Positions 8,020-26,312 of a stretch of DNA of 38,107 bases are shown here, piece after piece. The stretch's first letter is position 1. Every line of letters begins with the position of its first letter. The notes under the pieces are model-generated. The model worked only from the letters and a program-made list of their open reading frames with translations, was not told where the DNA came from and made no database searches. Where the stretch lies: the NCBI GenBank assembly GCA_039679645.1, contig JBDKUO010000038.1, positions 1 to 38,107 of the forward strand, in the 5' to 3' direction. The translations under genes were made by a program, and so were the position numbers. Source of the DNA: Armatimonadota bacterium (GTDB taxonomy: Bacteria > Armatimonadota > UBA5829).

Positions 8020-8306
8020 TATAAGCAGCTATTGTTGAAATAAGAATAATCGTTCCTGTTATGATGCCGTCGCAGTCTTGCGATAGTGCTGAAAATAACT
8101 GAATACTCTGCGGGAATAGCGGCTTATATCCATCGCTAATTCCCGCAGCCTGCAACTTTGTTGCGTGGGCGACTAAAATTGTTGAGAGAGTTGAAGGTTG
8201 AGAGATCCCGACCCACTTATCGCTCAATCGGCGAAGGCCGACTTTGTGTTTCTGTAGCAGTGACTTTAGTCGCAGGTCGTTGCAAGACAAGCCAAAGTTT
8301 TCTACG
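8020..8306. other. Convergent intergenic region with hairpin and repeat
   Basis: CTGCGGGAAT (8108-8117) and ATTCCCGCAG (8139-8148) form a perfect 10-bp stem, extended by AGCG/CGCT across a bulge, a possible terminator between the convergent genes although it lacks a T-run. Positions about 8224-8280 hold, in inverse orientation, a partial copy of the repeat module seen at 10820-10930 and 26195-26312. Confidence 0.5.
8224..8280 (-). repeat. Repeat module A, partial copy
   Basis: On the minus strand this reads GCGACTAAAGTCAC, GCTACAGAAACACAAAG and TCGGCCTTCGCCGA, closely matching 10824-10871. It lacks the second and third hairpins of the fuller copies. Confidence 0.6.
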
Positions 8307-10768: not shown

Positions 10769-10983
10769 TAAAATAGGGCAGGGTGAACGCATCTTAATTT
10801 TGTGTTTGGCAAAATGGTGACCTTGCGACTAAAGTCACAGCTACAAATACACAAAGTCGGCCTTCGCCGACTAAAATCTCAGTGTCCGAAGGGACACTTC
10901 GTGTTTTCCTTAGCCGCGGTTTTAACCGCAGAGGCCAAAACAAGGTGGATAGCATTTTGATGCGTTCGCCCTGTAAAATAGGG
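10769..10983. mobile_element. MITE-like element, copy 1, with flanking direct repeats
   Basis: The element spans 10779-10973 (195 bp). Left end CAGGGTGAACGCATC (10779-10793); right end GATGCGTTCGCCCTG (10959-10973), its inverted repeat with one mismatch. Immediately outside both ends stands the same 10-mer, TAAAATAGGG (10769-10778 and 10974-10983), as expected for a target-site duplication. No transposase is encoded. CAGGG ends with 8-10 bp duplications are what I recall for the ISAs1 family, so such a transposase may have mobilised it. One caution: TAAAATAGG occurs a third time at about 11015. Confidence 0.72.
10797..10935 (+). repeat. Repeat module A, full copy inside MITE 1
   Basis: Three hairpins in series: AGTCGGC (10855-10861)/GCCGACT (10866-10872), GTGTCC (10882-10887)/GGACAC (10892-10897), and GCGGTT (10916-10921)/AACCGC (10924-10929). 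The same series recurs at 26237-26308, with changed stem sequence in the second hairpin. Confidence 0.65.
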
Positions 10984-13535: not shown

Positions 13536-13858
13536 TCCCCCAGTGGGCCGACCTGACAAGCCGGGTGGGATCTTGGGATGCATGTCCTCGGCAGCCCCGG
13601 ATGCTCTCCATTACGCCTGAAACGCCGGGCCAATGCAAATCGGACGCTCTGGCAGCAGCCAAACACCTTATTCCCCTCATTCGTCTATATAACGCCTCAA
13701 GAATTAAAATAGATCGACAAAAAGTTTGCAGCAGGTGAGCCAGTTCTCTGACCGTCTGAGAGATAGTTTGTCATGGCCAAACCGGGGTAAAACTACGCTG
13801 ACTAGTGAATTCCTCAAGGTAAGATACCTGGAGGGATTATCACAAACTGGTGAGGCCT
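13536..13858. other. Upstream region of the hopanoid genes
   Basis: No gene is supported between the iorB terminator and shc. A minus-strand frame at 13345-13680 is a chance frame without family likeness. The region ends with the imperfect member of the CCTCCAGGTA hairpin family (13812-13834). I see no clear promoter, though one is expected because the iorB terminator should separate the two units. Confidence 0.4.
13812..13834 (+). repeat. CCTCCAGGTA hairpin family, copy 1 (before shc)
   Basis: CCTCAAGGTA (13812-13821), loop AGA, TACCTGGAGG (13825-13834). One A-G mismatch. The 3' arm carries GGAGG 15 bases before GTG 13850 and 24 bases before ATG 13859. Copies at 16948-16972 and 24392-24414 are perfect. 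Confidence 0.6.
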
Positions 13859-15769: not shown

Positions 15770-15778
15770 TATTTCCTC

Positions 15779-15855
15779 ACGAAAACACGAAAGGATGAAA
15801 GCACGAAATCAAAAAATCTTTTTTCGTGTTTTCCGGATTTCGTGCTTTCGTGGCA
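15779..15855. repeat. Repeat module B as an inverted pair
   Basis: CACGAAAACACGAAAGG and AAGCACGAAAT on the left (about 15779-15809) face TTTCGTGTTTTCC and TTTCGTGCTTTCGTGG on the right (about 15824-15852), forming one large imperfect stem between shc and hpnH. Single copies of the module lie at 23344-23375 and, inverted, near 978-1010. Confidence 0.55.
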
Positions 15856-16895: not shown

Positions 16896-16947
16896 TATTT
16901 TGGATTGATTATTTTTCGCGGGCGAATGCCCCGAAGCCACTTTTTAT

Positions 16948-16972
16948 CCCTCCAGGTATCTTACCTGGAGGG
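16948..16972 (+). repeat. CCTCCAGGTA hairpin family, copy 2 (before hpnA)
   Basis: CCCTCCAGGTA (16948-16958), loop TCT, TACCTGGAGGG (16962-16972): a perfect 11-bp stem. The GGAGGG in the 3' arm lies 11 bases before GTG 16984 and 17 before ATG 16990, and is the only strong ribosome-binding sequence there, so the hairpin could hide it. A TTTAGTATTTTGGATTGATT tract precedes it, as at 24354. Confidence 0.65.
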
Positions 16973-18003: not shown

Positions 18004-18030
18004 CGAAGTCCAAACACATTACCCGTATGA

Positions 18031-18159
18031 TGGGTAAGGATCTCCGAATCCTCACCCGCGAACCAGTGCCGGATCTCCGGATCCGGCTATTTCAGTAAAG
18101 GTTTCGGGGTTCGGAGACCCCAATTTGGCATTAATGGTGACGATTCGGAGATCGCCACC
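18031..18159. repeat. Four hairpins sharing one loop sequence
   Basis: Hairpin 1: GGGTAAGGAT/ATCCTCACCC with loop CTCCGA (18032-18057). Hairpin 2: GCCGGAT/ATCCGGC with loop CTCCGG (18068-18087). Hairpin 3: GGGGT/ACCCC with loop TCGGAG (18106-18121). Hairpin 4: GGTGACGAT/ATCGCCACC with loop TCGGAG (18136-18159). Stems differ while loops are the same sequence or its complement. They fill the gap between the convergent hpnA and DUF5658-like genes, so they may end transcription in both directions, but there are no T-runs. Confidence 0.65.
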
Positions 18160-18170
18160 TATCAGAGCTT

Positions 18171-23301: not shown

Positions 23302-23484
23302 GTGCCTGTTGCAGGGTGAATGCATCTTGATCTTGATCTCTATCACGAAAACACGAAACGGAGAAAGCACGAAAATTGCAGAATCCCGCGGACTAGAAAT
23401 TTGTTGCATCTTCAGATAAGAGTTAAACCTGCGTAATGCAGCCTTTCGTGATTGCATTTGATGCGATTGCCCTGGTGCCAGTCG
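23302..23484. mobile_element. MITE-like element, copy 2, with degenerate flanking repeats
   Basis: The element spans 23312-23474 (163 bp). Left end CAGGGTGAATGCATC (23312-23326) differs by one base from the left end of copy 1; the right end GATGCGATTGCCCTG (23460-23474) is its inverted repeat with a few mismatches. Direct repeats GTGCCTGTTG (23302-23311) and GTGCCAGTCG (23475-23484) agree at 8 of 10 positions, suggesting an older insertion. The interior holds repeat module B (about 23344-23375) rather than module A. No transposase is encoded. Confidence 0.65.
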
Positions 23485-23503
23485 ACTGAGCCAGTCGACT
23501 GAG
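23478..23503. promoter_or_regulatory. Tandem 13-bp palindromic repeat, possible operator
   Basis: CCAGTCGACTGAG occurs twice head to tail (23478-23490, 23491-23503), each containing the 10-bp palindrome CAGTCGACTG. It lies about 90 bases before the aldolase start. Spacing of 13 bp rather than a full helical turn, and overlap with the right flank of MITE 2, leave its role uncertain. Confidence 0.4.
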
Positions 23504-23593
23504 CACTGGACTAATTGTGCAGTATTTAGTAGAATACGATGGGTCTTGGATGCAAGGCCCTATGTGCTGTACGGACCTTGGAGGAAATCGAAT

Positions 23594-24352: not shown

Positions 24353-24391
24353 TTTAGTATATTGGATTTTAGATTGATTATTTTTTGTTAT

Positions 24392-24414
24392 ACCTCCAGG
24401 TATCCTACCTGGAG
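24392..24414 (+). repeat. CCTCCAGGTA hairpin family, copy 3
   Basis: CCTCCAGGTA (24392-24401), loop TCC, TACCTGGAGG (24405-24414), a perfect 10-bp stem between the aldolase stop and the MDR start. A TTTAGTATATTGG/GATTGATTATTTTTT tract before it (about 24354-24386) matches the tract before copy 2 at 16892-16916. Here the gene has a separate ribosome binding site closer to its ATG. Confidence 0.6.
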
Positions 24415-24444
24415 GAACAGAGAAGATAGGAAGAAGGCGCAATT

Positions 24445-26194: not shown

Positions 26195-26312
26195 GTTGGT
26201 TGCCGAGCGAATAAATTCGCGGCAACAAAGACACGAAGTCGGCCTTCGCCGACTCTGTGAGTCCCCGTAGGGGGGACTTTGTGTAGTTGTGGCCGTGGTT
26301 TTAACCGCAGGG
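26195..26312 (+). repeat. Repeat module A, full copy before the SDR gene
   Basis: Four hairpins in series: GTTGCCG/CGGCAAC (26201-26227), AGTCGGC/GCCGACT (26237-26254), GTCCCC/GGGGAC (26261-26277), and GTGGTT/AACCGC (26295-26308). It lies inside the carbohydrate operon, between the MDR and SDR genes, and lacks the CAGGG ends seen at 10779. No ribosome binding site is lost because the SDR gene has its own. Confidence 0.62.

Follow-up and report, generated by a model that had tools for sequence, protein, structure and literature searches.

The locus considered here, an element at positions 23312-23474 of a 38,107-nucleotide stretch of Armatimonadota DNA (hereafter the window), raises the question of whether one set of mobile ends can move unrelated short modules in the manner of a cassette. 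The original prediction had presented it as the second copy of a MITE family whose first copy (copy 1) lies elsewhere in the window, the two sharing their ends and carrying different interiors, and had proposed that ends and interiors might assort independently. Our analysis indicates that the element is very probably a type II MITE of the ISAs1 family, the payload of which is a captured intergenic palindromic repeat, named here the CACGAAA module after its repeated motif. The element is a real and well-supported ISAs1-type MITE, and no new mechanism of mobility is established by it; the point of interest is rather the link between insertion sequence ends and palindromic repeats that also exist on their own.

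Anatomy of the element

The window element is a non-autonomous element of 163 bp, bounded by the imperfect inverted ends CAGGGTGAATGCATC and CAGGGCAATCGCATC. Its ends were found as predicted, with CAGGGTGAATGCATCTTGAT at 23312 and CAGGGCAATCGCATCAAATG at 23474-23460 on the minus strand, and they are similar to those of copy 1. The predicted agreement of the flanks was likewise confirmed: the 10-bp target-site repeat reads GTGCCTGTTG on the left (23302-23311) and GTGCCAGTCG on the right (23475-23484), identical at 8 of 10 positions, and the chance of a match of at least 8 of 10 for this element in a fixed register is ~4e-4. Members of the family mostly have flank repeats matching at 8-10 of 10 positions; as the repeat here reaches only 8 of 10, the window copy appears to be old and may be immobile.

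On the plus strand, the left ISAs1-type end together with a short subterminal stretch (23312-23341) matches the ISAs1 end consensus CAGGGCGAACGCATC at 13 of 15 positions, and is followed by the left arm of the CACGAAA palindromic module (23342-23374), which consists of four 8-base units and is 91% identical to a module without such ends at 15777-15808. A loop (23375-23443) separates this arm from the right arm (23444-23452), and the right ISAs1-type end (23453-23474) reads CAGGGCAATCGCATCAAATGCA on the minus strand; the CAATCG core of this end is common to an ISAs1 element of the same genus (L109) and to an ISAs1 end on contig C8 of the genome from which the window comes (the home genome, G000). 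Within the home genome the loop is common only to one sister copy (G000:C9:~142984-143155), which is 84% identical to the window copy in the aligned part and has a flank repeat of 9 of 10. Aligned with this sister, the window copy shows a 16-bp deletion, by which its right module arm is shortened, and, close to its left end, a small insertion.

The 163 bp are mostly palindromic repeat and loop. No ORF of at least 100 aa overlaps 23312-23474, and no passenger gene lies between the ends. RNA folding of the element is unremarkable (z = -1.46), and the sole Rfam match in the window is a tRNA.

The ends belong to the ISAs1 family

When the 3.4-Mb home genome was searched with a 20-base end pattern allowing at most three mismatches, 42 matches were obtained, compared with 3 for the reversed pattern used as a control, which places the shared ends far above chance. 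All full-length elements with such ends that were checked (8/8) encode ISAs1 transposases, scoring 328-429 bits against a cut-off of 70 bits. These ends occur in relatives on L091 (1252 bp) and on L109 (1284 bp, same genus), each of which encodes an ISAs1 transposase, and so do six of six further elements from the genome collection, whose hosts include Gemmataceae, Chthonomonas and cyanobacteria. L109, from the genome G004, is intact and is flanked by the perfect repeat AATGAGAGCA; perfect 10-bp flank repeats were also found for L190 and L194.

The signature of ISAs1 elements, i.e. inverted repeats of 14-22 bp starting with CAGGG plus a 10-bp target repeat, is given in a paper on fresh insertions in Frankia (PMC11946415). 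The window element has terminal inverted repeats in this length range that start with CAGGG. It also has the 10-bp target duplication (8/10 here, 9/10 in its sister copy, and 10/10 in several copies of the related families A, B and D described below), and it shares its ends with autonomous ISAs1 elements of its genome or lineage, intact in the case of L109 and partial on contig C8. The latter contig opens with the C-terminal part of an ISAs1 transposase, after which comes the end CAGGGCAATCGCACT at a distance of 127 bases from the edge. No intact ISAs1 transposase gene was found in the home assembly, where it may sit in an assembly gap. Many contigs break off inside these repeats, at exactly 127 or 149 bases, from which we infer that breaks in the assembly have cost it multi-copy elements. 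The two DDE_Tnp_1 transposases of the home genome were considered as the parent and rejected, as their best NCBIfam match makes them IS1182-like and they lack such ends.

Four MITE families with a common end core

The genus holds at least four MITE families with shared ends, A, B and C in the home genome and D in the sister species G003 and G004. Family A (195 bp) includes copy 1, which occupies 10779-10973 on the plus strand and has the perfect 10/10 repeat TAAAATAGGG on both sides; its ends carry CTTAAT/CAAAAT at about positions 15-20. At about the same positions, the ends of family B (207 bp) carry CTTAAG/CTAATY, except in two copies with end deletions, those of family C, represented by the 163-bp window element, carry CTTGAT/CAAATG, and those of family D (200-204 bp) carry CGAGTR/CAATAA. 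A 15-bp end core is common to all families.

Interiors align strongly within one family, and between families they align no better than shuffles, save for a marginal similarity between B and D (a score of 27 against a shuffle maximum of 22). In particular, the interiors of copy 1 and the window copy are unrelated, their alignment score being no better than that of shuffled sequences, as the original prediction had it; by alignment, on the other hand, the two copies represent two MITE families (A and C) sharing ends, and their assignment to one family was wrong. The genus contains ~15 two-ended copies, most of them with flank repeats of 8-10/10, although two family B copies have no clear 10-bp repeat. 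Among these copies there are four unrelated interiors, and each of them goes with a single end variant of ~20 bp, with no exchange. Independent assortment of ends and interiors, as had been proposed, is not supported, since in every two-ended copy the interior is paired with the extended end variant of its family. One fixed interior per end type, the outcome that the original prediction had itself named as refuting, is what we find for the 20-bp ends, but not for the 15-bp core. Extended ends and interiors are inherited together.

Modules without ISAs1 ends

The interiors of families A, B and C are also found without ISAs1 ends. The family A interior occurs in this form at 8228-8278 and 26207-26310 of the window and elsewhere, the family B module at several places, and the CACGAAA module at 15777-15850 of the window and about 20 further places in the home genome. 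Counted in MITE coordinates, the free copies start mostly at 41-47 for A, mostly at 34-38 for B, and at 23-32 for C, a consistency that is expected if each module is a unit with limits of its own.

Two origins of these free copies have to be weighed. They might be worn-down MITEs which have lost their ISAs1 ends, so that the interiors would be native and nothing would have been captured. Such a course has precedents in the REP-like remnants that arose by end loss in QMITE2 and in the partial copies without ends of Chunjie (PMC10969869), and some copies in the home genome are plainly decayed or truncated (C30, C42, C13 and C65). However, the free copies share a start at the module boundary and do not begin at random truncation points. 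Furthermore, free CACGAAA modules far outnumber C-type MITEs, are kept at orthologous sites in sister species, occur in 10 of 28 genomes of the class (own genome included) and abound in other families of the order (G018, G016), and no close ISAs1 end was seen at the free CACGAAA loci inspected. Because of the consistent starts, the orthologous free modules and their abundance in other families, capture of pre-existing repeats is favoured over decay of MITEs, and we consider the latter unlikely as the general source of the free copies. This alternative concerns the origin of the interiors and is compatible with the identity of the window element as an ISAs1-type MITE.

Several observations concern the free modules and other repeats of the window. 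The free CACGAAA module at 15777-15850 and the free GTCGGC module at 26197-26310 each start ~8-10 bases past the stop codon of the gene before them, which is a REP-like location. Another dispersed intergenic hairpin, CCTCCAGGTATCTTACCTGGAGG, is present at 13804-13834, 16941-16971 and 24385-24415 of the window, and related forms lie near free CACGAAA modules on contigs C25 and C35. In addition, a 29-nt inverted repeat of the GGATCTCCGAATCC type, with 79 nt between its arms, is located at 18028-18164, and a similar hairpin adjoins a free module on contig C37.

Joining of ends and modules

The cassette-like arrangement that had been suspected is borne out in so far as one end system carries several unrelated short interiors (A, B and C, with D in sister species) and the modules can be found away from these ends as well. 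A true cassette system would go further, the same ends taking up and swapping modules freely so that ends and interiors assort independently. Three loci could be read in this way: at C4:15425 the sequence passes, inside the CACGAAA arm, from a C-type end into the loop known from free elements on contigs C69, C12 and (partly) C37; at G001:C54:9791 a C right end and arm are found with another loop; and at C65:6729 an A right end has a free A-type module on its other side. The hybrids are, however, explicable by recombination between repeated arms, and the two-ended copies show zero exchange, which makes such a system very improbable. What these few one-ended or hybrid copies suggest is that the palindromic arms recombine from time to time. 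A mere chance likeness of intergenic hairpins, for which only the imperfect ends and imperfect flank repeat of the window copy taken alone could speak, is virtually inconceivable given its sister copy, the perfect target repeats of related copies and the excess of end matches over the control, and the family data have already refuted it.

For the capture of pre-existing repeats in ISAs1-type MITEs, the following course may be envisaged. An ISAs1 transposase acting in trans would have inserted the gene-less element, with duplication of 10 bp of the target. Each MITE family would go back to a single event in which ends and module were joined, and would then have spread as a fixed unit; copy 1 belongs to a separate family, in which ends of this kind surround another intergenic repeat. 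The first joining might have come about through ISAs1 ends landing on either side of a repeat, through insertion of a repeat into a MITE, or through recombination between repeat copies. An empty site for the window insertion was sought in sister species and none was visible, synteny breaking at 23504 (G004, G001).

Relation to known systems

The window element has the CAGGG-starting inverted repeats, the 10-bp target repeat and the end sequence of ISAs1 family insertion sequences, but lacks a transposase gene. Like other type II MITEs it is short and gene-less, with insertion sequence ends, a target repeat and an interior unrelated to the insertion sequence, and the occurrence of several interiors behind shared ends is a known pattern among them; what differs here is that at least three of the interiors consist of intergenic palindromic repeats which occur on their own as well. 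Mobile insertion cassettes, such as MIC231 of Bacillus cereus with its IS231 ends, similarly consist of insertion sequence ends around unrelated DNA moved in trans. These cassettes carry a gene, whereas the window element carries none. Finally, the interior modules resemble REP-like and other intergenic palindromes in being dispersed and in lying, in some cases, a few bases past stop codons, but differ from them in that some copies are inside ISAs1 ends. None of the open-access papers searched describes MITEs of this kind that derive from ISAs1.

Intergenic palindromes of the dispersed type and MITEs are usually regarded as distinct classes of repeats. Here they are connected by the same repeat occurring both free and as an IS-ended payload, which suggests a possible route for the spreading of REP-like repeats. 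We put forward with considerable reserve the idea that ISAs1 ends repeatedly and preferentially capture intergenic palindromes, on three or more occasions in this genus and apparently also, though perhaps not independently, in a GL140 MAG, where ISAs1 ends enclose a CACGAAG palindrome on L233, L237 and L350, with the perfect repeat GCGGAGAGCG on L233. If it holds, such MITEs may arise or spread more readily where DNA is structured, and ISAs1 would be a vehicle dispersing REP-like repeats.

The elements at L233:5437-5674 and L237:3531-3768 of this MAG (GL140_6_metabat_212) are 238-bp ISAs1-ended MITEs with the CACGAAG palindrome internal; searching the literature for this CACGAAG string gave no result. 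ISAs1-ended MITEs of 257-259 bp with 10-bp flank repeats are also present in an Akkermansia muciniphila MAG (L202:5760-6018, L204:6576-6832). A lichen PVC MAG has an ISAs1-ended MITE that contains GTCATCCTGAGCG; this string was absent elsewhere in the loci searched, and we do not regard it as a further free module.

Neighbourhood of the element

The window element has a DUF1638 gene (minus strand) on one side and, on the other, a class II aldolase gene (plus strand). According to the original prediction, the insertion could have changed the regulation of the carbohydrate operon. The probable σ70-type promoter of the aldolase gene (TGGACT-17-TAGAAT, 23507-23535, plus strand) is located outside and downstream of the element, and its sequence is conserved in the sister species G004 and largely in G003. 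All sequence upstream of 23504 is unrelated in the sister species; the region near the aldolase promoter has in any case been rearranged. Just upstream of this promoter, at 23482-23507, a unit containing a palindrome, CCAGTCGACTGAG, occurs twice in tandem; the pair is operator-like in appearance and partly overlaps the right target repeat.
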